Assembly: GCF_023195835.1 (NCBI RefSeq)
Contig: NZ_CP096199.1
Span: 1,612,001 to 1,676,000 of the forward strand
Origin: Vibrio sinaloensis
GTDB lineage: Bacteria; Pseudomonadota; Gammaproteobacteria; Enterobacterales; Vibrionaceae
Length of the DNA: 64,000 bases
Reading direction: 5' to 3'
Part shown: positions 47,698-64,000 of the stretch, one piece after another
How positions within the stretch are numbered: position 1 is the first letter of the stretch
Layout of the letters: every line of letters begins with the position of its first letter
The notes under the pieces: model-generated
What the model was told of the DNA's origin: nothing
Databases searched by the model: none
The model's input: only the letters and a program-made list of their open reading frames with translations
Made by a program: the position numbers and the translations under genes

Positions 47698-48186
47698 TTA
47701 TCCTCCTTGTTCGACGCCATAGATAGCGGCTTCTACCTTTGCCATGATTTGTTTATCCACTTTTGCATACTGCACATGAACAGCGTCGAATTGGTCAAGC
47801 GTTTCCTGGCATTGGCCATACATGATTGCGATGTCAACTTGACTTAGCATCTCGCTAAACAACGCTTGGGCGCGTCCCTTTGACGAGTCACTGCAACTGA
47901 TTAACAAACGAAAGTCTATCTCGCGACAAAGCTTCTCAATTTTTGTCAGAAACTGCACCGTATTGGACTCTTGAAGGTTTGGTAACACAACGCCAATCAA
48001 TCGACTGCTCCCTTCACGCAGTGCTTTAGCAGCCATGTGTGGTGAGTAGTCATGCTGCTCGGCTAGTGCCAATACTTTGTTCTGGGTGGATAAACTAATT
48101 CGATATTGGTCACCTTTGCCGCTCAATATGTAACTCACCGTCGTTTTGGACACACCAGCTAACTTAGCGAGGTCACTTAATCTCAT
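47698..48186 (-). CDS. half-length LacI-family (Cra/FruR-like) repressor
   Basis: 162 residues from the ATG at 48186; another in-frame ATG lies 12 bases upstream. The DNA-binding part is complete: MRLSDLAKLAGVSKTTVSYI (helix-turn-helix) and the hinge KALREGSSRLIGVVLPNLQ. The effector domain stops after the first roughly 100 residues, where family members continue to about 330. The next gene starts only about 155 bases on, so there is no room for the missing half in another frame. It lies 16 bases after the PfkB gene. It may be a natural short repressor or a decaying one. Confidence 0.8.
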   Translation of the reverse strand: MRLSDLAKLAGVSKTTVSYILSGKGDQYRISLSTQNKVLALAEQHDYSPHMAAKALREGSSRLIGVVLPNLQESNTVQFLTKIEKLCREIDFRLLISCSDSSKGRAQALFSEMLSQVDIAIMYGQCQETLDQFDAVHVQYAKVDKQIMAKVEAAIYGVEQGG

Positions 48187-48214
48187 ACTCAGCCCCATCT
48201 GTCATTTACAACAC

Positions 48215-49147
48215 TTAGGGTCGCACAAGAATTTGCTTGATCATTTGATCAAATAAACTCATCGAGACAACACCAACCCCTACTTGAGAAACCGCCAAAG
48301 TTCCTATCGCGGTCGCACTAACAATCTGCCGGTGTGGGTTGTCAAACTGACTCGCCCAACAGAATCCAGCGACCACTGAATCACCAGCCCCAACAGTACT
48401 GACGAGTTCGACTTTTGGAGGAGTCGCAACTAAAACTTCGGTTTCAGTCGCCCAAATTAGCCCTTTCTCACCCATCGAAATTAAAACATTATCAATACCA
48501 AGCTCTACCAACTCCTTGGCCGCCGTAACACCATCTTCGATTGATTCTACAGGACGTCCAAGAAGCTCAGATGCCTCGTTCTCGTTGGGCTTAATCAACC
48601 AAGGTAGGGCAAAAACCCCCTGTTTCAGCATGGCTTTGCTGCTATCAAGAACGACCTTCTTGCCGAGCTGTTTTAGTTCTTGCATCCAACTAGTTACAAC
48701 GCTTTCATCCATGTTTTCAGGCAGACTACCGGCGAAAATATAACCATCATGGTCTTTTTCCAGCTCTAAAAGCTTGCGATGAAGCCGATCGATATCATCT
48801 GGCAATACGGAAAAACCACCAAAATTAATGTCGGTTGTTTCGCCGTTACTGGCGTGGACTTTGATATTGGTACGATTGGTGCCATCCACGCTGACAAACT
48901 GCGCATCTAGGTCACTAGCGTCAAACATCTCATCGAACAACTCTTGATTGTTGTGACCAAGGAACCCTGTCAAAGTGACTGATGCGCCAAGATCTGACAT
49001 CACCTTTGCAACATTTATCCCTTTGCCGGCGGCGTAGCGGTACTGCTCTTTGACGATATTCACTTGATTCACCGCAAAATCTTCCGCTTCAGCTGACAGA
49101 TCTATCGCGGGATTTAGAGTCACGCTAACCCATTTTATCGGATTCAC
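48215..49147 (-). CDS. PfkB-family sugar-phosphate kinase (1-phosphofructokinase group)
   Basis: 310 residues. VTLNPAIDLSAEAEDF at the start and YRYAAGKGINVAKVMSDLG (about 36-54) are typical of the FruK/LacC group. The catalytic loop is STVGAGDSVVAGFCWA (about 249-264) with the Asp base. It phosphorylates a ketose phosphate or similar sugar. The exact substrate is not decided by these motifs. Its neighbours are the short Cra-like repressor downstream and an SIS isomerase upstream (183-base gap, so a separate promoter is likely). Confidence 0.85.
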   Translation of the reverse strand: MNPIKWVSVTLNPAIDLSAEAEDFAVNQVNIVKEQYRYAAGKGINVAKVMSDLGASVTLTGFLGHNNQELFDEMFDASDLDAQFVSVDGTNRTNIKVHASNGETTDINFGGFSVLPDDIDRLHRKLLELEKDHDGYIFAGSLPENMDESVVTSWMQELKQLGKKVVLDSSKAMLKQGVFALPWLIKPNENEASELLGRPVESIEDGVTAAKELVELGIDNVLISMGEKGLIWATETEVLVATPPKVELVSTVGAGDSVVAGFCWASQFDNPHRQIVSATAIGTLAVSQVGVGVVSMSLFDQMIKQILVRP

Positions 49148-49926: not shown

Positions 49927-50397
49927 TTACACCCTTTCACCTGCGAGATACTCAGTAATGGTATCTACCACCAACTTGTGATCTTCATACTGAGGAAGGC
50001 CAGACACGGAGATAGAACCAACTACACCTACGCCTCGAATAATCAAGGGAAAACTACCACCGTAGGGAGCAAACTCTTTGCCATCCACTAAGGACGCTTG
50101 TTCAATGGTTTTACCTTTTGCCTTGTAGTACTGGCCCATATACCATGAGCTATGCCCGTAACGGTCGACCACATTGCGCTTGCGCTCAATCCAACATTGA
50201 TTGTCACGAGCCGTGTCAGGCATGGCAAAACTAAACAAGCGATGGCTGTTACGGACGATCTCGATAGCCACATTAACCTGTTTCGTCTCAGCACGCCTTT
50301 TGATCAAGCTGCCCAGTTCCCAGGCCGTTTGGTTGTTAAACGCTTCGAACTGCAGTTCAGCTTCTTGCGCCAATAGTTGGTTTAGATCGGTAATCAT
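49927..50397 (-). CDS. UPF0303 / heme-degrading-domain family protein
   Basis: 156 residues. Family features: NQTAWELGSLIKRRAE (about 22-37), VAIEIVRNSHRLFSFAMPDT (about 43-62), ERKRNVVDRYGHSSWYMG (about 71-88) and APYGGSFPLIIRGVGVVGSI (about 115-134). The fold is GlcG/HbpS-like. Despite the 'heme' domain name, members are often found in sugar and polyol catabolic operons, and the true role is unclear. It overlaps the upstream oxidoreductase by 4 bases, so they are co-translated. Confidence 0.8.
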   Translation of the reverse strand: MITDLNQLLAQEAELQFEAFNNQTAWELGSLIKRRAETKQVNVAIEIVRNSHRLFSFAMPDTARDNQCWIERKRNVVDRYGHSSWYMGQYYKAKGKTIEQASLVDGKEFAPYGGSFPLIIRGVGVVGSISVSGLPQYEDHKLVVDTITEYLAGERV

Positions 50398-51437
50398 AGT
50401 AGCTCCTGTAATTTCACTCGACGCTTCTCTTTAGCACTTAAATAAGCTGCTTCAATCACTGCAATAACACTCAAAGCTTCTTGCGCAGGAACGGGCTCAG
50501 GATGACCGTGGCGAATAGACTTAGCCAATTGATGATAGAAGTTTTGATAGCAACCAAGCTCAGTCGTAACACGACTCTGGACGCCATTTACATCTGTATA
50601 CTGGCCATAAAGATCTTCGCTTTCGCTACCCCAACCTGGAGTTCTGGGGCCTTTCTTCTCGCGCAGGAAGTCCTCTTGGCTATCCATACCATATTTAATC
50701 AAGCTGCCATTGTGGGCAAAAATCTGGAATCTTGGCCCTTCTGTCGTGCTCAAACAGTTGCCATGGACAATCACTTCGCACTCTGGATAGTGGAGCACTA
50801 AATGAAAGTGGTCGACAGCCTCTGCTCCCGTCCTCTGATTACGCAATATGCCTGTCACTTCATCTGGGGTGCCAAACAGCGCGATGGATTGATCGATTAA
50901 GTGCGCGCCTAAATCATAAAGAATGCCGGCACCAGGAACGTCTTGTTCTCGCCAACGAACTTTCACCTCTGGGCGATATCGGTTGTAACTGGAATAAAAA
51001 GTATGAATACCTTCGAGCTTGCCTTCACTAATCAGTTTTTTGATAGTGATAAAGTCGCCATCAAAACGACGACTTTGATAAACCGTCAGTACCTTGCCCG
51101 AGGTAGTCTGAATATCCAAAAGCGCTTTACCCTCTTGGTATGACACGGAAAACGGCTTTTCTACCACTACATGCTTGCCCGCCTGCAGTGATGCCATAGC
51201 CTGCGGCACATGCAAATGATTAGGTGTCGAGACCACGACAAGTTCAATGTCGGCGCGTTCAAGCATAGTTTCGAGGTTCGGATAAACCTCTGCATTCGGA
51301 AGTTGGGCTTTTACTTTTTGTTCGTCGCTAGAGACAACCGCCTTAAGGTCGTACTGTGGACAATCGCTGATAATTGGCGCTTGAAAACACTGCCCCGATA
51401 TACCGAAGCCAACTAAACCGACTTTAATTGTTTCCAT
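50394..51437 (-). CDS. Gfo/Idh/MocA-family oxidoreductase
   Basis: 347 residues from the ATG at 51437 (AAGGA at 7-base spacing; the TTG before it is not needed). It has the dinucleotide-binding GLVGFGISGQCFQAPII (about 7-23) and the family's catalytic Lys in GKHVVVEKPFSVS (about 90-102). DLGAHLIDQSIALFG (about 178-192) supplies the Asp/His pair. It should oxidise or reduce a sugar or polyol with NAD(P). The family includes 1,5-anhydrofructose reductase, which would fit this locus, but motif level does not decide it. Confidence 0.87.
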   Translation of the reverse strand: METIKVGLVGFGISGQCFQAPIISDCPQYDLKAVVSSDEQKVKAQLPNAEVYPNLETMLERADIELVVVSTPNHLHVPQAMASLQAGKHVVVEKPFSVSYQEGKALLDIQTTSGKVLTVYQSRRFDGDFITIKKLISEGKLEGIHTFYSSYNRYRPEVKVRWREQDVPGAGILYDLGAHLIDQSIALFGTPDEVTGILRNQRTGAEAVDHFHLVLHYPECEVIVHGNCLSTTEGPRFQIFAHNGSLIKYGMDSQEDFLREKKGPRTPGWGSESEDLYGQYTDVNGVQSRVTTELGCYQNFYHQLAKSIRHGHPEPVPAQEALSVIAVIEAAYLSAKEKRRVKLQELL

Positions 51438-51451
51438 CAAATGATCCTTAT

Positions 51452-51505: not shown

Positions 51506-54016
51506 TTATGCGAGCTCAAGCTCTTGTTTCAACAGTGCTTCAACTTGAGTATCACTGCTTGCAGTCATTAACTGCTCCCTAAAGTCTGCATGCATGATTT
51601 TGCGCGCAAGTTTAGAGAAAATCTTCATATGTTGGTCACCAGCAGCGTGTTTGTTCAGAGTCAGCATGATGATGAACTGTGCTTCTTCATCGCCCCAAGC
51701 AATTGGTTTCGCTAAACGACACACGCTAATTGCAGACTGCTCAATGTGCTCACTCTTGGTGTGAGGAATCGCAAAACCAAACCCTAACCCAGTAGAGAAC
51801 ACATCCTCACGAGCCCATAAGTCGTCAGCCAATTTATTCGGATAACGACAACGGCCAGTAATAAACAAGTTGTCTGCGAGCGTCTTAATCACTTCTTCTT
51901 TACTACGCAAATCTCGATCAAGGCTGATGCAGTCTTTCGACACCATAGGCGCCTCGGTTTGAGTCATGCGGAACTGGGCGAGAACATGCTCAACTTCCTG
52001 AACAGTGCGACACTCCATAGCGCGGTTAAGCAGTTGGCGACATTCACGACTATCAAGCTTAGAAATTCGCTCTTTAGTTGCTGCTATACTTGGCGCACTC
52101 ATACTGATTTCATCCAAGCCTAAGCCAACCAATAGCGGCAGAACGGAACCTTTCGCACCTAGCTCGCCACAAAGGCCAATCCACTTACCATGACGATGTA
52201 CTTCACGTACTACATGGTCAAGGGTGCGCAAGAATGCAGGGTTCAAGCTGTTGTAGTTTTTGGCAACTTTAGCGTTGTCACGGTCAACCGCCATTAGGTA
52301 TTGAGTCAGGTCGTTTGAACCAATCGAGAAGAAATCGATCTCTTCACAGCACTGGTCAATAATGAAAGCGACGGAAGGAACTTCAAGCATTATGCCCAGT
52401 GGCACGCGCTCGGCAAAAGGAACGTCTTCTTTGCGCAGCTCTTGGCGCACTTCTGCTAGGACATCTTTCACCCAAAGTATCTCTTCCATTGACGAGATCA
52501 TTGGAATCATAATCTTCAAGTTGCCGTGAGCCGAAGCGCGTAAGATGGCACGCAGCTGAGTCTTGAACATTTCAATAAACTCAGGGTAGATACGAACCGC
52601 ACGGTAACCTAAGAATGGGTTATTTTCAGCTGGGATATTGAGGTAATCCACTGGCTTATCGCCACCAATATCAATGGTACGGATAATGATAGATTTGCCA
52701 TTCGCCGCCTCACAAGCCTGACAGAAGATGTTGTACAGTTCGTTCTCATCTGGTGCAGATGTTCTGTCCATGTAGAGCATCTCTGTACGGAACAGACCTA
52801 CCGCTTCCGCCCCGTGAGCAAAGGCTTGTGGCGCCTCTACTGAGTGAGCTATGTTCGCTGCTACTTCTAACACTTTGCCATCGGCCGTTGTTGCTGCTAA
52901 GTCGCGGTATTTGGCTTGGCGTGTCGCCACAATCTCTTTTACTTTTTGCTCTTGAGCATAATAACGCTCTACCGCTTCAGTAATATCTGTCACTACCGCA
53001 CCTAAGTGACCATCCACAATCACCTGTTTACCCATAAACTCACCTAACTTAGCCGCATCTAAACCGACAATCGTTGGGATAGCAAAAGAGCGCGCCAAGA
53101 TAACAGTGTGCGAAGTGCTGCCGCCGTGAGATAGAATCAAGCCTTTAAGCAGGGATTTGTCTAGCTCGAGGAACTGACTTGGCGTTAGGTCGTCAGCTAA
53201 ACATACTGTTGGCTCATTAAGCTGAGTTTGGCTAGCAAATCGCTCGTCACCATAAATGCTTTGCAGTAATTGATAGCAAACATCGCGAATGTCTAACTCA
53301 CGCTCACGCATGTAGCTGCTAGACGAGTTCTTCATCATCTCACCAAAGTGTTTTGCTGTCGCGATGATGGCATCCGCACAGCTTTGACCTTCGATCAAGT
53401 TACCTTTGGTGGTTTGCTGAAACTCTTCGTCTTTAGCGATTGAAAGGTGAGCTTTTAGCACTTCCCCTTCGGTATGCTCAGCGGCTTTGAGTTGAATTGA
53501 AATCGATTTAATTACTGACTCCAACCCATTTTGCATTTGCAGTTGTTCTTCACTGAGCGCTAACGCAGGTGGAAGATTGTCTAGATTGTCGAAGTTAACC
53601 GCCCCCATAATAGTAAGGGCACCGCGACCAATACCTTCACTCACTGCACGGCCACGCTCATTTGCCACTTCTAGATTAGAGAAGTTACGCGGTAGCGGTG
53701 CTAGTTCAGCATCGTCAGCACTCTCATTGTTTTGTAGCGGAGCGTCACAGTGTGGGAACTCGTTAACGATGAACTGTTTAAGCTGGTTAATGGCAGACTC
53801 TTCATCTTGGCCATCAATGGTAATTAAACACTCATCACCAAGCAGCGTATCCGTACCGATAAGGGAAAGAACGCTTTTGGCGTTACCACTCATACCTGTG
53901 CGTTTATTTTGCCAAGTAATGTCAGAAGAAAATTGATTGCAAAGCGCTTCGACATGACTCGCTGGACGAGCATGAACACCATTTGGTAGCTCGCAAGAGA
54001 AAGAAAAAGTTTTCAT
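51506..54016 (-). CDS. ptsA: fused PTS HPr-enzyme I-EIIA protein (PtsA/FryA type)
   Basis: 836 residues. An HPr domain (about 1-90, phospho-His15 in PNGVHARPAS). Enzyme I (about 115-680) with phospho-His303 (GGSTSHTVILARS), GGDKPVDYLN and Cys616 (GLCGELGAKG). EIIA of the fructose/mannitol class (about 700-836) with phospho-His752 (FAIPHTKSEH). One polypeptide thus carries phosphate from PEP to the EIIB partners. It is divergent from EIIC/EIIB genes with a 435-base regulatory gap, like the E. coli frw locus. All phospho-acceptors are intact. Confidence 0.93.
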   Translation of the reverse strand: MKTFSFSCELPNGVHARPASHVEALCNQFSSDITWQNKRTGMSGNAKSVLSLIGTDTLLGDECLITIDGQDEESAINQLKQFIVNEFPHCDAPLQNNESADDAELAPLPRNFSNLEVANERGRAVSEGIGRGALTIMGAVNFDNLDNLPPALALSEEQLQMQNGLESVIKSISIQLKAAEHTEGEVLKAHLSIAKDEEFQQTTKGNLIEGQSCADAIIATAKHFGEMMKNSSSSYMRERELDIRDVCYQLLQSIYGDERFASQTQLNEPTVCLADDLTPSQFLELDKSLLKGLILSHGGSTSHTVILARSFAIPTIVGLDAAKLGEFMGKQVIVDGHLGAVVTDITEAVERYYAQEQKVKEIVATRQAKYRDLAATTADGKVLEVAANIAHSVEAPQAFAHGAEAVGLFRTEMLYMDRTSAPDENELYNIFCQACEAANGKSIIIRTIDIGGDKPVDYLNIPAENNPFLGYRAVRIYPEFIEMFKTQLRAILRASAHGNLKIMIPMISSMEEILWVKDVLAEVRQELRKEDVPFAERVPLGIMLEVPSVAFIIDQCCEEIDFFSIGSNDLTQYLMAVDRDNAKVAKNYNSLNPAFLRTLDHVVREVHRHGKWIGLCGELGAKGSVLPLLVGLGLDEISMSAPSIAATKERISKLDSRECRQLLNRAMECRTVQEVEHVLAQFRMTQTEAPMVSKDCISLDRDLRSKEEVIKTLADNLFITGRCRYPNKLADDLWAREDVFSTGLGFGFAIPHTKSEHIEQSAISVCRLAKPIAWGDEEAQFIIMLTLNKHAAGDQHMKIFSKLARKIMHADFREQLMTASSDTQVEALLKQELELA

Positions 54017-54108
54017 TACATATTGTCCTTGTACTGCTAGGCGATAGGCCCGAGTTGATGTAACAACAATAACAAATCATCACACTCCAGCCATTGGACA
54101 AAAATACT

Positions 54109-54121
54109 AAATACTGGATTT
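54109..54121 (-). repeat. repeated promoter motif copy 1
   Basis: The reverse strand reads AAATCCAGTATTT. It matches the copy at 62334-62346 at 12 of 13 positions. ACAAAAAT (54098-54105) and ATTTTTGT (54118-54125) make an 8-bp inverted repeat around it. Candidate AraC-type regulator site. Confidence 0.45.
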
Positions 54122-54141
54122 TTGTAATATCAAAGATTAAG

Positions 54142-54157
54142 TGTGAACGAAATCAAA
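54142..54157 (+). promoter_or_regulatory. candidate CRP-cAMP site in the PTS divergent promoter
   Basis: TGTGAACGAAATCAAA has a perfect left half and TCA of the right half, at the correct 6-base spacing. CRP control is expected for a PTS sugar locus. Confidence 0.5.
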
Positions 54158-54320
54158 TTTACTATCTCTTTTGTGAGCCAGTACACTTTAAGTACTAGAG
54201 AAACAAAAAAGACAACACTTAAGCTTTTGTTTTATAAGAATATAACCCACGAGAAGACCATTTAACGCTAATCTGGACAAAAATGTAGATGGAGATCAAA
54301 TTTTGCCTGCACTCTAACAA

Positions 54321-54333
54321 TTATCCAGTAAAT
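54321..54333 (+). repeat. repeated promoter motif copy 2
   Basis: TTATCCAGTAAAT shares TATCCAGTA with the other copies. It lies about 120 bases before the EIIC start. A TGGACAAAAAT 11-mer also occurs twice in this gap (54095-54105 and 54274-54284). Confidence 0.4.
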
Positions 54334-54451
54334 AGCATAAAAATCCTCTAACTAGACAGCACAAATGCTCACTATATTAGATTCAAAGCCCGGGCAGCTA
54401 AACCAACGTGAAACAGATTCTATATATGCAATTTGACCCAAGGAGAGGTCT

Positions 54452-55525
54452 ATGAATGATTTAATCACAATTTTGAAGGACACCAGAAGACATCTGATGA
54501 CTGGTGTATCTCATATGATCCCATTTGTGGTAGCTGGCGGTATCCTACTTGCTGCGTCAGTTATGATGTATGGTGAAGGTGCCGTTCCAGAAGAAGGGAC
54601 ATGGTTACACGATCTATTCTTCATCGGTGTGGCGGGTTTCCAACTCATGGTGCCAATCCTAGCTGCTTATATCGGCTACTCCATCGCAGACCGTTCAGCG
54701 CTAGCTCCTTCTGCCATCGCCGCTTTTATTGGCGCTAACATGTACAACACTGGCTTCTTCGGTGCGATCTTCGCAGGTCTACTTGGTGGTATCGTCGTCT
54801 TCTACTTGAAGAAGATAAAAGTACCCGCTTTTGCTCGCTCCATCATGCCTATCTTTGTTATTCCAATCATAGGTACCTTTATTACAGCAGGCGCTATTGT
54901 ATGGGGTATTGGTGAGCCAATTGGTGCAGCAACAGCTTCGCTAACTGACTTCCTAAAGAGCATGCAGAATGAAAGCATCGTGGTACTTGCTATCATCATG
55001 GGTTGTATGATCGCTTTCGATATGGGTGGGCCGGTCAACAAAGTCGCTTATGCATTCGTTATCTTGTGTGTCGGCGAAGGCATCTACAACGTCGCGGGTA
55101 TCTCTTCAGTAGCCGTAGCGGTTCCTTCTATCGGTATGGGCTTAGCAACCTTCATCAACAAGAAACTCTACGACTCAAGTGAGCAAGAAGCAGGTCGCGC
55201 ATCAATCCTAATGGGTACTATGGGTATCACTGAAGGTGCAATCCCATTCGCCGCCGGCGACCCACTACGTGTTATCCCATCAATCATGATCGGTACCGCA
55301 GCAGGTGCAGTAACGGCAGCAGTAATCGGTGTGGAGAGCTACGCAGCTTGGGGTGGCCTAATTGTTCTACCCGTTGTTGAAGGTCGCGTCGGATTTATTG
55401 CAGCGCTAGCCGTCGGTTCAATCGTCACTGCGCTATTGGTTAACTTCCTAAAGGCACGTCGCCCGGTGCTTGAAGAGTCAAAAGAAGAATCTAACGACTT
55501 AGACCTAGATATCAAAATCGGTTAA
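54452..55525 (+). CDS. frwC: PTS fructose-type EIIC permease (FrwC/FryC-like)
   Basis: 357 residues with about nine membrane helices. HLMTGVSHMIPFVVAGGILLA (about 14-34), IAFDMGGPVNKVAYAF (about 188-203) and MGITEGAIPFAAGDPLRVIP (about 265-284, with the GITEGAIPF substrate signature) identify the fructose EIIC family. It stands separate from EIIB, as in frw/fry systems. The ribosome site is AAGGAGAGGTCT. It imports and helps phosphorylate the sugar with the separate EIIBs and the fused HPr-EI-EIIA. Confidence 0.9.
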   Translation: MNDLITILKDTRRHLMTGVSHMIPFVVAGGILLAASVMMYGEGAVPEEGTWLHDLFFIGVAGFQLMVPILAAYIGYSIADRSALAPSAIAAFIGANMYNTGFFGAIFAGLLGGIVVFYLKKIKVPAFARSIMPIFVIPIIGTFITAGAIVWGIGEPIGAATASLTDFLKSMQNESIVVLAIIMGCMIAFDMGGPVNKVAYAFVILCVGEGIYNVAGISSVAVAVPSIGMGLATFINKKLYDSSEQEAGRASILMGTMGITEGAIPFAAGDPLRVIPSIMIGTAAGAVTAAVIGVESYAAWGGLIVLPVVEGRVGFIAALAVGSIVTALLVNFLKARRPVLEESKEESNDLDLDIKIG

Positions 55526-55559
55526 TTACCCAATCCTATCAAAACTCAAAACAAAACTT

Positions 55560-55592
55560 GCAAGGCGCGCTCTCTTTTACTTAGCGCCTTGC
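55560..55592 (+). other. intergenic hairpin between EIIC and EIIB
   Basis: GCAAGGCGC / GCGCCTTGC, a perfect 9-bp stem with a 15-base loop and no T run. It may set unequal mRNA levels of the two PTS subunits. Confidence 0.6.
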
Positions 55593-55622
55593 CCTCCAGA
55601 CTGAAATTTAAGGAAATTAATT

Positions 55623-55946
55623 ATGACTAGTATCGTAGCAGTAACAGCGTGCCCATCAGGTGTAGCACATACGTACATGGCAGCAGAAGCGATCGACGCA
55701 GCAGCAAAAGCAAAAGGCTGGACATGTGAAGTGGAAACTCAAGGCTCTATCGGTATCGAAAACGAATTGACTGCTGCAGCCATTGAAGCCGCTGACGTGG
55801 TTATCTTAACTAAAGACATAGACATCAAAAATAGCGAACGCTTTGAAGGTAAGACAGTGGTGAGTATCGGTGTTAGCGACGCAGTTAAGCGAGCTGCAGC
55901 AGTAATGGATAAGATTGAAGCTCATCTAGCAAATGTAACGGCTTAA
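55623..55946 (+). CDS. frwB: PTS fructose-type EIIB (FrwB-like)
   Basis: 107 residues. The phospho-cysteine motif is VTACPSGVAHTYMAAEAI (about 7-24, Cys10), with EVETQGSIGIENELT and LTKDIDIKNSERFEGK typical of the family. It relays phosphate from the EIIA domain to the sugar bound by EIIC. Ribosome site AAGGAAATT. A hairpin lies on each side of the gene. Confidence 0.92.
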   Translation: MTSIVAVTACPSGVAHTYMAAEAIDAAAKAKGWTCEVETQGSIGIENELTAAAIEAADVVILTKDIDIKNSERFEGKTVVSIGVSDAVKRAAAVMDKIEAHLANVTA

Positions 55947-55978
55947 TAGGACATTAAGCACTTTCCTCTAAAGGCTCA

Positions 55979-56001
55979 CTCCCCTCCTCCTTGGAGGGGA
56001 G
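55979..56001 (+). other. intergenic hairpin between EIIB and glycyl radical enzyme gene
   Basis: CTCCCCTCC / GGAGGGGAG, a 9-bp GC-rich stem with a 5-base loop and no T run. It is a possible partial terminator or RNA-end stabiliser, so the radical enzyme may have its own promoter in 56002-56133. Confidence 0.65.
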
Positions 56002-56133
56002 GTCTAACACCAACGAGTAATGATACCAAAGTGACCGACGCTGAGACATCCGCACACGGTGACTTCGTTATAAATATTCAAAACACCAAAACGCTCAACA
56101 ACCGTATTACTGGTAATGCAAGGAGCCACGCAA

Positions 56134-58434
56134 ATGAGCACCCCAAGAATTGAACGCCTCAAGTCAGCACTGTTTGAATCACAACGTGAAATCTCACTTG
56201 AGCGCGCATTGCTTTACACACAAAGTCATAAAACAACCGAAGGTGAACACACGCTTATTCGTCGTGCAAAAGCCACCGCTTATGTTCTCGATAATGTCGA
56301 AATTTCTATCCGTGAAGATGAGTTGATTGCCGGTAACCGAACAGTGAAAGCACGTGCAGGTATTGCCTCTCCAGAGATGGACCCATACTGGATTGAGAAA
56401 GAGCTCGATATCTTCGCTACTCGCCCTCAAGATAAGTTTTTTATCTCAGAACAAGATAAAGCCGTTTACCGTGACGAGCTACTGGCTTACTGGTCAGAAC
56501 GTTCAATGAAAGATTTCATCAACTCGCAAATCCCATCTGAAGTTAAAGATGCCGTGGCGCAAAAAATCTTTAGCGTCAACCAAACAGATAAAGGCCAAGG
56601 CCATATCATCATAGACTTTGATCGTTTGCTAGAACACGGCTTAGGTTCACTGCTGGATGAGATGCAAGGCCTAGCGTTAAGTAACCCAGACAATGAGTTC
56701 TATCAATCTGTGGTGCTATTGCTGGAAGCCTCTATTCGTCATATCTATCGATACGCTGATCTTGCGCAGAACATGGCAGAAGCGTGTGATGATGTGGAGC
56801 GCAAAGCAGAACTCGTTAAGATCGCTAATATTTCTCAGAAAATCGCTACCAGGAAGCCGCAAGGTTTCTACGAGGCCTGTCAGCTATTTTGGTACATGAA
56901 CATTGTTCTGCAATACGAATCTAATGCAAGTTCTCTATCTTTAGGTCGCTTTGACCAGTACATGATGCCGTTCTATCAAGCATCTATTGATGCAGGAGAA
57001 TCTCCGGCATTCCTAAAAGAGCTATTAGAAAGTCTATGGATTAAAACCAACGATATCGTTCTGCTACGCTCTTCTGGCAGTGCTAAGTTCTTCGCAGGTT
57101 TCCCTACCGGTTACACCATCTTACTTGGCGGACTAACTGACACAGGTAAAAGTGCGGTTAACCCACTATCTAGCCTATGTTTAGACGCATATCAAAGCGT
57201 ACAGCTACCACAACCAAACCTTGGTGTACGTGTTAATGAGTTCATTGACCGTGGCTTCTTAATGAAAACTGCTGAAACCATTCGTTTAGGTACCGGTATC
57301 CCGCAAATCTTCAACGATGAAGTCGTCGTTCCTGCCTTCTTGAACCGTGGTGTTTCACTGGAAGACTCGCGTGATTACTCAGTTGTTGGTTGCGTTGAAT
57401 TATCTATCCCAGGTAAGACTTACGGCCTGCATGACATCGCGATGTTCAACCTGCTCAAAGTGATGGAACTCACCATGCAGCGCAATCAGGATAATCCAGA
57501 TATCAGCTTTGATAACTTGGTTGAGCAGATTCGCACTGACATCAAACACTACGTAAAACTCATGGTCGAAGGCTCAAACATCTGTGATGTTGGCCACCGT
57601 GACTGGGCTCCAGTGCCTCTACTATCATCATTCATTCGCGACTGTATCGAGAACGGCAAAGACATCACTTACGGCGGCGCGCGCTATAACTTCTCTGGTG
57701 TGCAAGGTATTGGTATTGCCAACCTATCAGATTCACTACAAGCATTAAAACGCTTTGTTTTTGAAGAGCAACGTCTGAGTTTTGCTCAATTTATCGACGT
57801 GCTAAACGCCAACTTCGATGTTCCTGAAGGTGACAAGATTCGCACTCGCCTAATGAACAAGTACGAGAAGTATGGCAACGATATTGATGAGGTTGACAAC
57901 CTAGGTGCTGAGCTTCTACGCCTTTTCTGTAAAGAGGTAGAGAAGTATGACAACCCGCGCGGTGGTCAGTTTACTCCGGGCTCTTACACCGTTTCAGCGC
58001 ACGTACCGCTAGGTGCTGTTGTTGGCGCGACTGCAGATGGCCGTTTAGCTGGAGAACAACTCGCAGATGGCGGCCTGTCACCTATGCTGGGTAAGGATCA
58101 ACTTGGCCCTACGGCAGTACTGAAATCAGTAAGCAAACTAGACAATTACCTACTTTCGAACGGCAGCCTACTCAACGTTAAGTTCACGCCTGCCACCCTA
58201 GAAGGTCAAACGGGACTAAGCAAACTGTCTGACTTCTTGCGCGCGTTTATGAAGCTAAAACTTCAACACGTTCAGTTCAACGTGCTCAATGCGGAAACGC
58301 TAAAAGCAGCGCAGCAAAAACCTGAAGATTACGCGGGCCTGGTGGTTCGTGTCGCGGGCTACAGCGCATTCTTTGTTGAATTATCGAAAGAGATTCAAGA
58401 TGACATCATTCGCCGAACCGCACATGAGCTGTAA
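56134..58434 (+). CDS. pflD: glycyl radical enzyme, PflD/YbiW type (candidate anhydrohexitol-phosphate lyase)
   Basis: 766 residues from the ATG at 56134. AAGGAG lies 8 bases before it, and an ATG 18 bases upstream sits on that ribosome site and is rejected. E. coli PflD is about 765. The thiyl Cys420 and Glu422 lie in YSVVGCVELSIPGK. The glycyl radical loop is VVRVAGYSAFF with Gly742. The single Cys-x-Glu and absence of the Cys-Cys pair exclude true pyruvate formate-lyase and place it with C-O/C-N-cleaving eliminases. E. coli PflD and YbiW are reported to open 1,5-anhydrohexitol-6-phosphates to 1-deoxyfructose-6-phosphate. The activase follows with a 35-base overlap. Confidence 0.9.
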   Translation: MSTPRIERLKSALFESQREISLERALLYTQSHKTTEGEHTLIRRAKATAYVLDNVEISIREDELIAGNRTVKARAGIASPEMDPYWIEKELDIFATRPQDKFFISEQDKAVYRDELLAYWSERSMKDFINSQIPSEVKDAVAQKIFSVNQTDKGQGHIIIDFDRLLEHGLGSLLDEMQGLALSNPDNEFYQSVVLLLEASIRHIYRYADLAQNMAEACDDVERKAELVKIANISQKIATRKPQGFYEACQLFWYMNIVLQYESNASSLSLGRFDQYMMPFYQASIDAGESPAFLKELLESLWIKTNDIVLLRSSGSAKFFAGFPTGYTILLGGLTDTGKSAVNPLSSLCLDAYQSVQLPQPNLGVRVNEFIDRGFLMKTAETIRLGTGIPQIFNDEVVVPAFLNRGVSLEDSRDYSVVGCVELSIPGKTYGLHDIAMFNLLKVMELTMQRNQDNPDISFDNLVEQIRTDIKHYVKLMVEGSNICDVGHRDWAPVPLLSSFIRDCIENGKDITYGGARYNFSGVQGIGIANLSDSLQALKRFVFEEQRLSFAQFIDVLNANFDVPEGDKIRTRLMNKYEKYGNDIDEVDNLGAELLRLFCKEVEKYDNPRGGQFTPGSYTVSAHVPLGAVVGATADGRLAGEQLADGGLSPMLGKDQLGPTAVLKSVSKLDNYLLSNGSLLNVKFTPATLEGQTGLSKLSDFLRAFMKLKLQHVQFNVLNAETLKAAQQKPEDYAGLVVRVAGYSAFFVELSKEIQDDIIRRTAHEL

Positions 58435-59278
58435 TTCAGAACCAAACGATCAAGCGAGCAGCGGCCGGATATTCAATATCCAGCGCTACTCGCTACACGA
58501 CGGCACTGGTATCCGTACCGTCGTGTTCTTTAAAGGCTGCCCATTAAGCTGCCCATGGTGTGCTAACCCAGAATCGCGTTCGCACCGGACCACTTACCTG
58601 CGCCGAACATCCAAGTGTATTGATTGTGAAACCTGTGCCATGGATGTCGATGAGTGTCCAAGTGGCGCTTGGGAGCAAGTCGGGACAAATATGACCTTGG
58701 ATGAAGTGATTGCTGAGGTGACCAAAGATGACGTTTTCTTCAACACTTCAAATGGCGGCATTACTTTGTCAGGTGGCGAAGTGTTAACTCAGCCTAAGTT
58801 TGCTATTGAGTTACTCAGCAAATTGAAGGCTATGGGATTTAGAACCGCTATTGAAACCTCGGGACACGGTAACACGAAGCAACTGCTTAAAATTGGTCAG
58901 TCGTGTGATGAAGTGCTGTTCGACTTTAAAATCATGGACCCACAACGGGCCAAAACCGTGATTGGGATTAATCTGGAACTGGTTTTAAACAACTTCCGCC
59001 AATTGGTAGAACAAGGGACGAACGTCGTCCCTCGCCTACCCCTTATCCCAGGTTACACCCTAGACCTCATTAACACTGACCGGGTGCTCAACTTCTTACG
59101 CCCGTTCAATCTTAACGAAATTCATTTGCTGCCATTTCATCAATATGGCGCAAACAAATACCAAACCTTGGGGATGGAGTATCTACTCGAAGACGTTCCG
59201 GTTCCGAGTAAAACAGAGGTGGAAAGCATACGCCAACACGTTGCGGCACAAGGCTACCACGTCATCATTGGAGGATAA
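58400..59278 (+). CDS. pflC: glycyl radical enzyme activase (PflC type)
   Basis: 292 residues from the ATG at 58400 (AAAGAG upstream), inside the end of pflD. The radical SAM cluster is FFKGCPLSCPWCANPESR (Cys-x3-Cys-x2-Cys, about 42-59). A second cysteine set, CIDCETCAMDVDEC (about 73-86), would bind an extra Fe-S cluster. Other motifs are ITLSGGEVLTQPKFA (about 118-132) and ETSGHGN. It uses SAM to create the glycyl radical on PflD. It is translationally coupled to its target. Confidence 0.92.
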   Translation: MTSFAEPHMSCNSEPNDQASSGRIFNIQRYSLHDGTGIRTVVFFKGCPLSCPWCANPESRSHRTTYLRRTSKCIDCETCAMDVDECPSGAWEQVGTNMTLDEVIAEVTKDDVFFNTSNGGITLSGGEVLTQPKFAIELLSKLKAMGFRTAIETSGHGNTKQLLKIGQSCDEVLFDFKIMDPQRAKTVIGINLELVLNNFRQLVEQGTNVVPRLPLIPGYTLDLINTDRVLNFLRPFNLNEIHLLPFHQYGANKYQTLGMEYLLEDVPVPSKTEVESIRQHVAAQGYHVIIGG

Positions 59279-59280
59279 AT

Positions 59281-60138
59281 ATGACTAAGAAAATACTCAT
59301 TACTGGCGCAAACGGCTTCTTCGGCACTCGTTTTATTAACCGCTACCAAGGCGAGTTTGAAATCCTTGGCCTAGACGTTGAACAGCTCGATATCACAGAC
59401 AACCAAGCGGTTGTCGCTACTTTTGCTGACTTCCAACCAGATTACGTAATCCACGCTGCGGCGATTGCGGTGACAGACTTCTGTAACAAACATCCTGATG
59501 TCGCACACAAGGTCAATGTTCAAGGCGCGATCAACGTAGCAAAAGCGTGTAAAGAGCACGGTGCCAAACTGGTGTTTATCTCTACAGAGCAAGTGTTTAA
59601 CGGTAACCCCGAGAAAGGTCCATACAGCGAATTAGACCAACCAGTGCCAGATACCGTGTACGGTCAGAACAAACTAGAGGCAGAGAAGGAGCTAGCAAGT
59701 ATTCTCGACGAGATGTGGGTACTGCGCTTTACCTGGCTATTTGGCCTTCCTGAACGTAACACAACCATCAACCCGAACGTGGTTTGGAACACACTACAAG
59801 CGCTAATTAACGGGCAGGTGATGCAAGAACGTCGCAATGAATTCCGTGGTCTAACTTACGTACACGAGCTTATCGAGCAGTTCCCGAAGATCTTCACGAT
59901 TCCTTACGGTACCTACCACACAGGTGCACATAACCCAGCAAGCCGTTATGAGATTGCAGAGCACATTCTCACAGAGCTAGGCCAACAAGAGCGCTTAAAT
60001 GAACTGTTAGAAGCCGCGGATGCACCCAAAACACGTGATGTACGTTTAGACACAAGCAAACTCGCCGACCAAGGGGTAGCCTTTACCGAGAGTAAAGAGG
60101 CAATTACCCAGTGCTTGAAAGAATTTTACTTTGTTTAA
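59281..60138 (+). CDS. extended SDR, RmlD-like sugar reductase/epimerase
   Basis: 285 residues. Nucleotide-binding ILITGANGFFGTRFINRY (about 5-22), ADFQPDYVIHAAAIAVTDFC (about 49-68), VFISTEQVFNG and the catalytic TVYGQNKLEAEKEL (YxxxK). It resembles dTDP-4-dehydrorhamnose reductases, but no nucleotide-sugar genes are nearby. It starts 2 bases after pflC, with TGGAGG as ribosome site, and precedes fsa, so it belongs to the radical operon. It could act on a product or by-product such as hydroxyacetone or a deoxyketose. That is inference. Confidence 0.82.
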   Translation: MTKKILITGANGFFGTRFINRYQGEFEILGLDVEQLDITDNQAVVATFADFQPDYVIHAAAIAVTDFCNKHPDVAHKVNVQGAINVAKACKEHGAKLVFISTEQVFNGNPEKGPYSELDQPVPDTVYGQNKLEAEKELASILDEMWVLRFTWLFGLPERNTTINPNVVWNTLQALINGQVMQERRNEFRGLTYVHELIEQFPKIFTIPYGTYHTGAHNPASRYEIAEHILTELGQQERLNELLEAADAPKTRDVRLDTSKLADQGVAFTESKEAITQCLKEFYFV

Positions 60139-60188
60139 ATTTGTTTGGCTGCGCGGCGCGTAGCCTAGCCCAATTTAGGAGCAATACC

Positions 60189-60866
60189 ATGATTTACATG
60201 CTAGATACCGCAGACCTTAAAGCAATTCGCAAAGCGGTCGATCTTTACCCTTTGGCTGGGGTAACGACTAACCCATCCATTATCGCTAAAGAGAACCGCC
60301 CTCTCAAAGAGATCCTTTTGGATATCCGTGAGTGTATTGGTGAAGAGCGTATGCTACATGCCCAGGTGATGGGTAAAGACGCAGAGACAATGCTTGAAGA
60401 AGCTAAAGCTCTGAAAACGTTTGATAACAACATCATCGTAAAAGTGCCAGCAACTCCTCAGGGCATCAAAGCGATGAAACTTATCCACGCAGAGGGCATT
60501 CGTATCACCGCAACGGCTATTCTTACGCCTCAGCAAGCGCTAATGGCAGCGGTTGCTGGCGCAGAGTTTCTAGCTCCTTACGTAAACCGTCTAGACAACA
60601 TCTGTAGCGATGGTGTGAATGTCGCGGCTGAGATGGTGGCACTGATCGACACTTATGACTTGAATGCCAAAGTTCTCGGTGCATCATTTAAAAACGTGCA
60701 GCAAGTTCATCAATTGTCTCTAGTAGGCGCACACTCTGTAACGATTGCACCAGACGTATTTGACCAACTGTTGGTTCATCCACTGACAGACTCGGGTGTT
60801 GCAGGCTTTGTTGCAGATTGGGAAGAGGTTTATGGGAAAGATACCACGGTGCTAGACGTACTATAG
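60189..60866 (+). CDS. fsa: fructose-6-phosphate aldolase (FsaA/FsaB type)
   Basis: 225 residues from the ATG at 60189 with TAGGAGCAA upstream. The Schiff-base residue is Lys85 (NNIIVKVPATPQG), the same number as in E. coli FsaA. GVTTNPSIIAKENRP (about 24-38) and RITATAILTPQQALMAA complete the small transaldolase-like fold. The length suits Fsa, not transaldolase (about 315). In E. coli, Fsa cleaves 1-deoxyfructose-6-P to hydroxyacetone and glyceraldehyde-3-P, the step after PflD/YbiW. Confidence 0.93.
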   Translation: MIYMLDTADLKAIRKAVDLYPLAGVTTNPSIIAKENRPLKEILLDIRECIGEERMLHAQVMGKDAETMLEEAKALKTFDNNIIVKVPATPQGIKAMKLIHAEGIRITATAILTPQQALMAAVAGAEFLAPYVNRLDNICSDGVNVAAEMVALIDTYDLNAKVLGASFKNVQQVHQLSLVGAHSVTIAPDVFDQLLVHPLTDSGVAGFVADWEEVYGKDTTVLDVL

Positions 60867-60927
60867 TGTGATCTAGTTCTTAGTTTTGGTCGCTGGATAT
60901 CAAAACCCAAAAATTAAAACCAATCGC

Positions 60928-60957
60928 ATGCCCAATGATATTACAATCACTGGGCAT
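60928..60957 (+). other. intergenic hairpin between fsa and the second EIIB gene
   Basis: ATGCCCA / TGGGCAT, extended inward by AATGAT/ATCACT with one mismatch, and no T run. It is the third such hairpin in the operon. Confidence 0.55.
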
Positions 60958-60986
60958 TACCTTATCACTAGAAAACAGACCGCATT

Positions 60987-61322
60987 ATGAAAATCGTTGG
61001 AGTTACTGCGTGCATCAGTGGCGTAGCACACACCTACATGGCTGCCGAAGCACTAGAAAAAGCCTGTAAAAAAGCGGGATATAAGATCTCAGTTGAAACT
61101 CAAGGAGCACTGGGTAGCGAGAACCAACTTGATGAGTCTGATATCGCAGAAGCCGATGTTGCGGTCATTATTGCCGATATCAATATTGACGGTGTCGAAC
61201 GATTCAGCCAAACACGGATTGTGCGTTGTTCCATTGCGCATTTTTTGAAAAATAGCATCGAAGTCCTTCAGGCGATTGAAAAAATACGCAACGCACCACC
61301 TAATGCAGAGCTTATCCTCTAA
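60987..61322 (+). CDS. frwD: second PTS fructose-type EIIB-like protein (FrwD-like)
   Basis: 111 residues, paralogous to the EIIB at 55623. The phospho-Cys motif VTACISGVAHTYMAAEAL (Cys9) is intact, followed by VETQGALGSENQLDESDI and a less conserved C-terminus. E. coli frw also carries an extra EIIB, FrwD, at this position before the AraC gene. It may be a second phosphate donor or a signalling EIIB. The ribosome site is weak. The stop overlaps the convergent AraC gene by 4 bases. Confidence 0.88.
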   Translation: MKIVGVTACISGVAHTYMAAEALEKACKKAGYKISVETQGALGSENQLDESDIAEADVAVIIADINIDGVERFSQTRIVRCSIAHFLKNSIEVLQAIEKIRNAPPNAELIL

Positions 61323-62188
61323 TCTGCAGGCGTGGGACTTGTACTTAGATACTGCGCGCGATACTCCGACGGTGAGCGTGCAGTTTGATTTCTAAACACT
61401 CGACAAAAATAGTTACTATCCTTAAACCCGCAGCGATGCGCGACCTCTTTCACCTTCATATCGTATTCAATCAACAAGTACTTGGCGCGCTCTAAACGGA
61501 CATGGTTTAAATATTCGTTGAACTTAAGTTGCCCCTCTTTCTGAAACAACTGAGACAAATAGTTCGGTGAGACATAAAAATGCTGAGCCACCGACTCACG
61601 CGTCAAAGACTCATGATAGTGTTGCTCAAGATGTTCCCTCACCGCTTCAAATAGCGCATGGCTTTTAGATGGTGTCTCAACCGGGCGTTCAATCAGATCA
61701 AGAATATGGCTAAACAGTGAACCCACCAATAAACGCTTAGTGCCCTGACTTTCGGGTTGCTTGATCAACTCTTCGATAGCATTAAGGATAAAGGTACCGA
61801 TACGAGGGCCGCGACGAAGGACACTCTCTTTGATCGCTGAGTCAAATTGTTCACCATCCCAACTCAATAAACTCATACCAAAGCTCTGCTTGCCCGCCAT
61901 TACCGTTAGAGTCACGACAGGCTTGTTCCACAAAGGCTTATTCCAGCTTTCTGCGGGTAGGTACAACACACCACCCTGTTTTAGCGTGTACTGAGTATCA
62001 ACACCCATGCTATTGCCTACTTCCATATCCAACTCGCCCACCAACACCATTTCTACACGAGGAAAGTGAACCTGATAAGCCAAAGGCGGAGGTTTGGGCA
62101 GATTGCCAGCAAAGTAGACATCGCTGATCGCTTCCGTCTGTTTCGCATAATATTCAAGTGCTTCTAGTAAATATGTTTTGTCTAGCAT
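61319..62188 (-). CDS. AraC-family transcriptional regulator (YijO/FrwR-like)
   Basis: 289 residues. A cupin-like N-terminal effector domain (about 20-150) precedes two C-terminal helix-turn-helix units (LTRESVAQHFYVSPNYLSQL and VKEVAHRCGFKDSNYFCRVF, about 195-280). In E. coli, yijO is the AraC-type gene next to frwD, supporting a role as the locus regulator. It is divergent from the phyH-like gene, whose promoter carries a copy of the TATCCAGTA motif also seen before frwC and ptsA. Confidence 0.87.
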   Translation of the reverse strand: MLDKTYLLEALEYYAKQTEAISDVYFAGNLPKPPPLAYQVHFPRVEMVLVGELDMEVGNSMGVDTQYTLKQGGVLYLPAESWNKPLWNKPVVTLTVMAGKQSFGMSLLSWDGEQFDSAIKESVLRRGPRIGTFILNAIEELIKQPESQGTKRLLVGSLFSHILDLIERPVETPSKSHALFEAVREHLEQHYHESLTRESVAQHFYVSPNYLSQLFQKEGQLKFNEYLNHVRLERAKYLLIEYDMKVKEVAHRCGFKDSNYFCRVFRNQTARSPSEYRAQYLSTSPTPAD

Positions 62189-62333
62189 GGTTGATTATCT
62201 GTATGAGTTTTCATTCCACCCAAATATAGGGTAATTGAGCCTTAAAGCATTGTAGCTATTAACCTCCAACAAGATATTCGAGCAATAACCTTAAGGATAT
62301 GTGTTAAATCACACTTTGTTCAATAGTCAACAA

Positions 62334-62346
62334 ATATCCAGTATTT
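62334..62346 (+). repeat. repeated promoter motif copy 3
   Basis: ATATCCAGTATTT, 12 of 13 identical to the reverse-strand copy at 54109-54121. It lies about 90 bases before the dioxygenase start and about 146 bases before the araC start. Candidate binding site shared by the two divergent promoters. Confidence 0.45.
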
Positions 62347-62435: not shown

Positions 62436-63203
62436 ATGACACAAATCGCTCAAACGCATTTAAACGCGCTCGGTGCAGATCTTGAACTGTCTCCACAGAT
62501 GATCTACGAGCTAGACACCCTAGGTTTCACCGTCATTCACAACGTAGTCGATGAAGATTGGCTTGAAGAGATGCGTCGAACTATCGACATGCTCGTTGAA
62601 CGAGAAGGCGAAAACTTGGCGATCGAACATCACCAAGAGGAAGGCGTAACAAGAGTCGCGAACCTGATCAATAAAGGCACCGTGTGGGAAAAGGTCTGGG
62701 CACACCCGCTTGCTCTCGCTGCCTGTAAACACATCTTTGGTGGCGCTTTTAAAATATCTAGCCTCAACGCGCGCGAAGCGCATCCTGACTGTGGTCATCA
62801 ACCGCTGCATGCTGATTGGAAGAAACCACGTCCTGACTTTCCTAAAGTTCACTTAGTTAACTCTATTTGGGCGATTGACGACCTAACTCGTGAGAATGGT
62901 GCACCGCGAATTATCCCCGGCACTCACCTACGACCAGAGTTACCTGAAGAGGTCTTGGAAGATGTCGAAGGGGCCCATCCAGACGAAATCTATCTAGAGT
63001 GCCCAGCGGGCAGCGTGATGATTTTCAACGCTCACACCTGGCATGGTGGAACCATAAACTATGCGGGAACACGCCGCAGAGTGCTGCATGGTTTGTATAT
63101 CGACCGTGATGATGCAGCACAACAAGACCAGCAAAAATGGCTCACGGAGCATACCGCTAGCCGCTTAACTCCAGCTCAAAAATGGCTACTGGATGTAGAG
63201 TAA
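62436..63203 (+). CDS. phytanoyl-CoA dioxygenase (PhyH) family protein
   Basis: 255 residues. The Fe(II) triad is visible: HxD in QPLHADWKKP (about 126-135) and the distal His in IFNAHTWHGG (about 196-205). The 2-oxoglutarate-binding Arg lies in GTRRRVLHGLY (about 210-220). The family hydroxylates or epimerises diverse small molecules using O2 and 2-oxoglutarate. It begins the rightward transcript leading to manA and shares a promoter motif with the PTS operon. An O2-dependent enzyme beside an O2-sensitive radical pathway is unexpected. Substrate unknown. Confidence 0.85.
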   Translation: MTQIAQTHLNALGADLELSPQMIYELDTLGFTVIHNVVDEDWLEEMRRTIDMLVEREGENLAIEHHQEEGVTRVANLINKGTVWEKVWAHPLALAACKHIFGGAFKISSLNAREAHPDCGHQPLHADWKKPRPDFPKVHLVNSIWAIDDLTRENGAPRIIPGTHLRPELPEEVLEDVEGAHPDEIYLECPAGSVMIFNAHTWHGGTINYAGTRRRVLHGLYIDRDDAAQQDQQKWLTEHTASRLTPAQKWLLDVE

Positions 63204-63265: not shown

Positions 63266-64000
63266 ATGTCGATATATAAGCTTAGCAACGTCATTCAAAC
63301 CTATGATTGGGGTAGCCTCACTTCTCTCAATGAGATGTTTAATATCGAAAACCCCCAACACTCACCGCAAGCAGAAATGTGGATGGGAACTCATCCTAGA
63401 GGGTGTTCAAAAGTCGCAGACAAAGGTATCGCGTTGAGTGAGTTAGTGGTCGAAGACACTCCGAACATGCTTGGACGCTACACCGCAATGCGTTTTGGCG
63501 AATTGCCATATCTACTTAAAGTCATCGCGGCCGATTCACCACTCTCTATCCAAGTTCATCCTAGCAAAACAAAGGCAGAGCAGGGCTTTCAGCGCGAAGA
63601 ACAGCTAGGAATTCCTATCGATGCCAGCAACCGAAACTATAAAGATGACAACCACAAACCAGAGTTGGTTTACGCACTGACCTTTTTTCTTGCCCTGAAT
63701 GGGTTTAGACCGATTTCAGAGATCATCTCTTTGTTTAAAGAGCTCAACCTCCATTCGATTAATACAATATTGCAATCATTGCTCGCTCAGCCAAATGAGA
63801 GCGGTTTGAAAGGCTTCTTCAAGCACATCATGACATTGTCGGGACAGGATAAACAACAGGCATTAGCAGAACTAAACTCTGCCCTGACACGGCCCGCCAA
63901 AAGTCGACTGGCAAGAGAAGCATTTCACACCATCAAAAAACTATCTGAGCACTACCAAGATGATGTTGGTTTGTTCGCACCGCTTCTGCTCAACATAATC
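63266..64000 (+). CDS. manA: mannose-6-phosphate isomerase class I, N-terminal part (runs off the window)
   Basis: 245 residues are visible from the ATG at 63266 (AGAGAGACTTAAC upstream), and the frame stays open to the last base. YDWGSLTSLNEMF (about 13-25), PLSIQVHPSKTKAEQGF (about 92-108, zinc ligands Gln and His) and DDNHKPELVYALTFFLALNG (about 129-148, zinc Glu) are ManA signatures. It interconverts mannose-6-P and fructose-6-P. It is 62 bases after the dioxygenase gene and likely co-transcribed. A second, housekeeping manA could exist elsewhere. Confidence 0.93.
   Translation, partial: MSIYKLSNVIQTYDWGSLTSLNEMFNIENPQHSPQAEMWMGTHPRGCSKVADKGIALSELVVEDTPNMLGRYTAMRFGELPYLLKVIAADSPLSIQVHPSKTKAEQGFQREEQLGIPIDASNRNYKDDNHKPELVYALTFFLALNGFRPISEIISLFKELNLHSINTILQSLLAQPNESGLKGFFKHIMTLSGQDKQQALAELNSALTRPAKSRLAREAFHTIKKLSEHYQDDVGLFAPLLLNII

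Follow-up and report, generated by a model that had tools for sequence, protein, structure and literature searches.

How does a bacterium that can open the ring of an anhydro-sugar phosphate by radical chemistry use the same sugar in air? The question is raised by a gene cluster of Vibrio sinaloensis in the 64,000-nucleotide stretch analysed here (the window; contig NZ_CP096199.1, positions 1,612,001 to 1,676,000, of a 4.17 Mb genome in two contigs). A preliminary description of the DNA from 51506 to 62188 had read it as a locus that imports an anhydrohexitol as its 6-phosphate (6-P) through a phosphotransferase system (PTS) and ferments it with a PflD-type glycyl radical lyase and a fructose-6-P aldolase (Fsa). 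The named genes lie where it had placed them and match the expected families in profile searches, and import as the phosphate and the Fsa step both hold as predictions from sequence. That reading is incomplete, because the system also includes a short-chain dehydrogenase/reductase (SDR) and an oxygenase and because one relative has no radical enzyme at its locus. The SDR gene (59281-60138) and the PhyH-manA pair (from 62436, just beyond 62188) had gone unmentioned. By homology the locus comprises a PTS, a PflD ortholog with its activase, Fsa, the SDR, a 2-oxoglutarate/Fe oxygenase (PhyH), the mannose-6-P isomerase ManA, and an operator element that the PTS and PhyH promoters share (Table 1). 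We propose, with the balance of evidence about even, that these parts extend the PflD-pathway locus into a twin-route system with the SDR and an oxygenase branch.

The PhyH oxygenase and the operator

PhyH has the PF05721 domain, the HxD...H and Arg residues and the oxygenase fold, and manA starts 62 bases downstream of it. Its distribution was followed in two samples, 296 genomes around the window (taken as Vibrionaceae) and 246 around Pluralibacter genome G335 (taken as Enterobacteriaceae). In the former, PhyH occurs in 12 genomes, 11 of them with PflD, the twelfth being G283, described below; in the latter, all 7 genomes with PhyH fall inside the 40 with PflD. The hypergeometric probabilities of this co-occurrence are 2.8e-14 and 1.9e-6, respectively, statistics that ignore shared descent. 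Pooling both samples, 18 of 19 PhyH genomes carry PflD, and in four of these (G323, G330, G335 and G511, all from the 7 of the second sample) the two genes are on separate contigs. Of the 20 loci with the SDR, 11 contain PhyH, and PhyH accompanies PflD also at loci without the SDR, in Kluyvera, Raoultella and Yersinia (the SDR was sought there at the locus), which argues that PhyH probably shares the substrate of PflD and that the SDR acts upstream of both. A genome-wide search covering 50 of 80 PflD loci detected PhyH in 29, a value that is not a frequency because the 50 genomes were hand-picked to include loci with a nearby PhyH.

An upstream alignment of five Vibrio loci revealed a block common to the EIIC and PhyH promoters, ACAAAWATCCAGTA. 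Comparing the two upstream regions of the window alone is modest evidence, the score being reached in 2 of 500 shuffles. The V. sinaloensis genome contains the exact element only twice, upstream of ptsA and upstream of PhyH; a copy with one mismatch precedes EIIC. We then counted it in 100 loci (2.10 Mb), all chosen for PflD or PhyH: the 62 exact matches comprise 55 in the divergent regions of PTS genes, 7 before PhyH and 0 elsewhere, against 0 for the reversed pattern, and with up to one mismatch there are 116 (92 PTS, 17 PhyH, 7 others) against 2. Six of the 7 others lie just upstream of pflD in Kluyvera and Pseudocitrobacter. Removal of the four loci that were the source of the motif leaves 54 exact matches (49, 5 and 0) and 107 with up to one mismatch (86, 14 and 7). 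In the full set, 78 of 83 PTS loci carry the element at up to one mismatch. Across the 50 PflD genomes the exact element was counted 46 times and the reversed pattern 8 times; 30 of the 46 are reported as loci, and all but one of these 30 fall at promoters of PTS genes (25) or PhyH (4). A looser form gave 28 matches versus 11 reversed in the first 11 Vibrio genomes. An earlier operator guess, TGGACAAAAAT, which occurred close to the PTS genes of several loci without a convincing match before PhyH, was superseded by ACAAAWATCCAGTA.

The element also recurs where the genes are dispersed. Three Rahnella loci (L187, L189 and L190) have an exact copy before a PhyH gene that does not share a contig with pflD; in a Kluyvera genome (L235) the PTS, gldA and fsaB are on another contig than pflDC-PhyH, with an exact copy, and one-mismatch copies precede pflD and PhyH in Kluyvera. 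Taken together, this pattern is regulon-level evidence that places PhyH in the predicted PflD pathway. Outside the locus, the V. sinaloensis genome has 9 one-mismatch matches and 6 for the reversed control, and we therefore name no further targets. As the protein that reads ACAAAWATCCAGTA we propose the AraC-type regulator of the locus, whose gene matches E. coli YijO with 311 bits, the next-best place in the genome reaching 52. The regulators sampled beside enterobacterial PhyH genes form a clade within the YijO-type proteins (support 0.946 to 0.979).

The SDR and a locus without the lyase

The SDR gene sits between the activase gene and the Fsa gene, directly before the latter. In the 296-genome sample it occurs in 20 genomes, namely all 19 with PflD and G283; among the 80 PflD loci it is found in 11, namely those with Vibrio or Pseudovibrio in their titles, and the other 69 lack it. 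Its product has the RmlD fold and the Tyr/Lys pair, and differs from RmlD (dTDP-4-dehydrorhamnose reductase) in scoring below the curated cut-off (TIGR01214, 153.7 vs 224 bits) and in carrying a STEQVF-type motif, with E103-Q104 invariant, in place of the STDYVF of RmlD. Among the best 120 of 1489 matches, homologs of about 59-61% identity are found in named Firmicutes (Clostridium, Caloranaerobacter). Two genomes of Pseudovibrio exalbescens (L016 and L017) have a Vibrio-type locus with the SDR and a lyase of 78-81% identity, and one of them also has a PhyH gene, located on a different contig and with an operator copy of one mismatch; since Pseudovibrio is an alphaproteobacterium, transfer is suggested.

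The locus of G283 (L146) has the genes for PfkB, HbpS and PtsA on one strand, those for EIIC, EIIB, SDR and EIIB on the other, and then AraC, PhyH and ManA. Lyase, activase and Fsa were not found in its 20-kb stretch (best tblastn E value 0.035), and no lyase of the PflD kind is listed for the whole genome at E 1e-100, the Fsa search having been confined to the locus stretch. The SDR thus seems to have a use even where the radical branch is lacking, and G283 suggests that PTS, SDR, PhyH and ManA suffice for some function.

Two further assignments were abandoned. The Gfo/Idh-type gene of the window does not qualify as a 1,5-anhydrofructose reductase, its best match being YvaA (3gdo, 337 bits; 2glx, 51 bits), and it is missing from 11 of the 20 SDR loci. 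Neither is ManA a dedicated paralog, the genome holding just one TIGR00218 match.

The PflD pathway and the proposed second route

As regards the radical branch, the PflD-type assignment of the preliminary description stands. The lyase exceeds the PRK09983 cut-off (1484 vs 1109 bits) and shares 75 and 76% identity with PflD from two loci labelled E. coli. Among solved structures E. coli PflD scores best (8yjo, 1325 bits), followed by 8id0 (1037), glycerol dehydratase 1r8w (657) and YbiW 8id7 (453). The motifs GCVE and VVRVAGYSAFF, pointed out before, provide C419, E421 and G741 of the 765-residue protein. In a tree of 31 proteins, whose supports are those of the unrooted tree, the lyase falls among 17 PflD orthologs (0.996) and groups with 8id0 (1.000), not with 1r8w, so that we discarded a glycerol or propanediol dehydratase. 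It equals E. coli PflD at 14 of 14 active-site columns, chosen through glycerol dehydratase numbering and not through sugar-phosphate contacts of PflD, and differs from YbiW in several: at glycerol dehydratase positions 156, 281, 339 and 447, YbiW has G, H, Y and G, and the window lyase N, S, G and D. Neither branch nor residues fit a YbiW-type enzyme. The sequence-level outcomes that would have refuted the preliminary description, placement in another clade or absent residues, were not observed. The protein is thus, on homology, a PflD ortholog, and 1,5-anhydromannitol-6-P as its predicted substrate is carried over from E. coli. According to PMC12441222, PflD opens 1,5-anhydromannitol-6-P and YbiW 1,5-anhydroglucitol-6-P, both giving 1-deoxyfructose-6-P.

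Fsa is more divergent: 39-40% identical to FsaB/FsaA, it falls short of each of three Fsa cut-offs (231 vs 306, 228 vs 246 and 213.1 vs 214 bits) and is unlike FsaA/FsaB at position 107. It retains Q59, K85, Y131 and R134 (Fsa numbering; Q60, K86 and Y132 in the window protein), including the lysine noted previously, and is a divergent relative with, probably, the function of Fsa. The function of the PflD pathway was reportedly established by Ma et al. (JACS 2024), cited in PMC12441222.

The locus resembles E. coli gldA-fsaB-ptsA/frwCB-pflDC-frwD/yijO in its PflD, PflC and PTS parts, Fsa activity class, AraC regulator and divergent layout; the operator too is present there, without mismatch in E. 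coli E69 (L033) and with a single one in K-12. The E. coli-like gene order claimed earlier applies to ptsA, to frwC frwB pflD pflC frwD and to yijO, but not to the aldolase: E. coli has gldA and fsaB on the ptsA side and no SDR, whereas here the SDR and the divergent Fsa are inside the lyase operon. PhyH was not found in the E. coli genome searched (G342). The E. coli ybiUVWY-fsaA operon, for 1,5-anhydroglucitol-6-P, also combines a glycyl radical lyase with Fsa, but differs in lyase branch and active-site residues, and its YbiU belongs to PF07350, not to the PhyH family. YbiU entries are not among the 50 rows listed in the PhyH fold comparison, which carries no weight either way. According to PMC8464067, ybiU is in the same operon as ybiW in E. 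coli and YbiU is an uncharacterised Gig2-like protein. The V. sinaloensis genome has, at a separate locus (L118), a YbiW ortholog with activase and Fsa, and also an HpfG-type enzyme (L117).

On this basis the sugar, for which a red-algal source is plausible, would be imported by the PTS as its 6-phosphate, and the SDR would act before ring opening, most likely by converting 1,5-anhydrofructose-6-P into 1,5-anhydromannitol-6-P; C2 epimerisation of anhydroglucitol-6-P is an alternative role. RmlD-type SDRs reduce a ring ketone, which fits 1,5-anhydrofructose-6-P as the substrate. Without oxygen, PflD would turn 1,5-anhydromannitol-6-P into 1-deoxyfructose-6-P, and Fsa would cleave this to glyceraldehyde-3-P and hydroxyacetone. 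Oxygen destroys glycyl radicals; in air, PhyH would instead hydroxylate C1 of 1,5-anhydromannitol-6-P, the resulting hemiacetal being mannose-6-P, which ManA would convert into fructose-6-P. The YijO-type protein would turn on both branches through ACAAAWATCCAGTA. A bolder version, in which one regulon subjects the same anhydro-sugar phosphate to two opposite ring-opening chemistries (radical lyase and oxygenase) after the SDR step, with YbiU as a possible anhydroglucitol counterpart, we put forward more tentatively, at somewhat below an even chance.

The chemistry has a parallel. Rhizobiaceae convert 1,5-anhydrofructose via anhydromannitol into mannose, all unphosphorylated, the last step being assigned to an unidentified P450-like hydroxylase (PMC12441222); ketone reduction followed by C1 hydroxylation is what we propose, but with phosphorylated intermediates, an SDR in place of a Gfo/Idh-like reductase (the solved 1,5-anhydrofructose reductase is 2glx) and a 2-oxoglutarate oxygenase. 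There is precedent for such an oxygenase acting on a sugar in sulfoquinovose use (PMC12965863). The radical pathway is established; the open-access literature searched yielded no account of the SDR, of the oxygenase branch, of the operator or of the variant without lyase, and no paper that names PhyH or the locus SDR together with PflD.

Several observations weigh against this proposal. In the two samples, 8 of 19 and 33 of 40 PflD genomes have no PhyH, which means that PflD does not need it, and marine bacteria, Endozoicomonas among them, have more distant relatives of PhyH (43-58% identity), beyond the genomes screened for PflD. manA, as the sole genome copy, also lies beside loci without PhyH (L009, L010 and L151), and its adjacency may be synteny. 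The operator, at up to one mismatch, is found in only 17 of 32 PhyH loci, the genes of Raoultella and Pluralibacter being without it, and 6 of the 46 exact matches in the 50 genomes, judged by contig and position, fall elsewhere. G283 is a single genome, in which gene loss and original absence are both possible. We infer both the action of PhyH on anhydromannitol-6-P, at C1, and the reduction of anhydrofructose-6-P by the SDR, and the Rhizobiaceae hydroxylase is described (PMC12441222) as cytochrome-P450-like and not 2-oxoglutarate-dependent. By our own reckoning, an SDR running on NADH together with hydroxyacetone reduction would unbalance the fermentation unless there is another electron source.

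Three other explanations compete with the twin-route proposal. The locus could be an ordinary one for anhydromannitol fermentation by PflD, with the SDR substituting for GldA in reducing hydroxyacetone and PhyH-manA as chance neighbours. This was our early idea of the SDR, and it accounts for the gene lying immediately before Fsa and for the absence of a gene best matching E. coli GldA from all 20 SDR loci, compared with 36 of 69 loci without SDR that have one. It was set back by G283, in which the SDR is retained although lyase, activase and Fsa are missing from the locus, so that reduction of Fsa-made hydroxyacetone is an unlikely role; furthermore, a GldA homolog of another type adjoins 3 SDR loci (L009, L010 and L147), and chance neighbourhood agrees poorly with the operator and phyletic pattern that PhyH and PflD have in common. 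We retain it as a rival and consider it unlikely.

Less likely still is that PhyH cleans up, oxidising anhydrohexitol phosphates or a side product as detoxification and not in support of growth. Human neutrophil hexokinase is inhibited by 1,5-anhydroglucitol-6-P (PMC12441222 and PMC10439028), and HAD sugar-phosphatase-like genes are present at 6 of the 20 SDR loci, but what remains in G283 (PTS, SDR, PhyH and ManA) resembles a catabolic set. To a third explanation we give the same low weight: the substrate of the SDR and PhyH could be some other derivative of a PTS sugar, perhaps another anhydro-sugar or a deoxy-sugar, with a Vibrio PflD clade shifted in specificity. The Vibrio-type PflDs do form their own clade (support 0.996), Fsa has just 40% identity and its unlike position 107, and the locus holds additional kinase, SIS and Gfo/Idh genes; the identity with E. 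coli PflD at every active-site column checked speaks against such a shift.

Other features and implications

Table 1. Features of the locus, in window coordinates.
Feature	Position	Strand	Basis
PfkB-family kinase	48215..49147	-	TIGR03828 303.5, cut-off 292
HbpS-like gene	49927..50397	-	near ptsA in 20/20 SDR loci examined with left flank
YdgJ/YvaA-type Gfo/Idh oxidoreductase	50394..51440	-	PRK11579 330.2, cut-off 330; 9/20 SDR loci
ptsA-type HPr-EI-EIIA fusion	51506..54016	-	Pfam PTS-HPr, PEP-utilisers/utilizers, PTS_EIIA_2
Operator ACAAAAATCCAGTA, upstream of ptsA	54112..54125	-	one of 2 exact genome matches
Operator copy ACAATTATCCAGTA, one mismatch, upstream of EIIC operon	54317..54330	+	kept in four relatives
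FrwC-type EIIC	54452..55525	+	NF007787 567 bits, cut-off 426
FrwB-type EIIB	55623..55946	+	NF007783 173 bits, cut-off 135
PflD-type glycyl radical lyase, 765 aa	56137..58434 (open reading frame opens 56116)	+	NF007437/PRK09983; 8yjo; active-site columns; tree
PflC-type activase	58400..59278 (open reading frame opens 58349)	+	NF007483/PRK10076 436 bits, cut-off 326
RmlD-fold SDR; proposed reductase (or epimerase) of imported anhydro-sugar-6-P	59281..60138	+	
Divergent fructose-6-P aldolase (Fsa)	60186..60866	+	40% to FsaA, catalytic residues present
FrwD-like EIIB	60987..61322	+	NF007747 142 bits, just below best cut-off 153
YijO-type AraC regulator	61319..62188	-	E. coli YijO 311 bits; AraC domain
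Operator ACAAATATCCAGTA, upstream of PhyH	62330..62343	+	second of 2 exact genome matches
PhyH-type 2-oxoglutarate/Fe(II) oxygenase; proposed aerobic ring opener	62436..63203	+	
manA, mannose-6-P isomerase	63266..64000, continues beyond window end	+	genome's only TIGR00218 match

The PfkB kinase occurs in 4 of the 20 SDR loci, and these are also the ones where manA comes after PhyH. Beside it in the window is a LacI-type regulator gene (47698-48198) of 166 residues only, which covers just the first part of its models. The ptsA-EIIC intergenic region also has an FNR-like site (54286-54299) and a CRP-like site (54142-54157), with one mismatch each and partly conserved in relatives; such matches exist without specificity. 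The HAD sugar-phosphatase-like genes lie beside L008, L009, L010, L011, L012 and L013, the L008 copy scoring 250 bits (PRK11587 cut-off, 282), and possibly serve to release surplus sugar phosphate. On chromosome 2, L117 (G000:C2:266000-282000) contains the HpfG-type sulfopropanediol dehydratase gene (1607, cut-off 1000), with a PRK10426-kind alpha-glucosidase, a GldA-family gene and, by eye, a dihydroxyacetone-kinase-like gene as neighbours; the YbiW-YbiY-Fsa locus L118 (280000-298000), with a DeoR-type regulator recognised by eye, is a few kb from it.

PhyH is a concrete, testable candidate, backed by its phyletic pattern, by a lyase-less variant of the locus and by an operator common to two families, and the YijO-type regulator gains a candidate binding element. 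If the proposal is true, PhyH would represent a first enzyme that opens the ring of anhydrohexitol phosphates aerobically, with YbiU, co-operonic with YbiW in E. coli, as its possible anhydroglucitol counterpart. The locus suggests a way in which a facultative anaerobe may keep a carbon source usable once air has destroyed its radical enzyme: two opposite chemistries, governed by a single genetic switch, would consume the same sugar.

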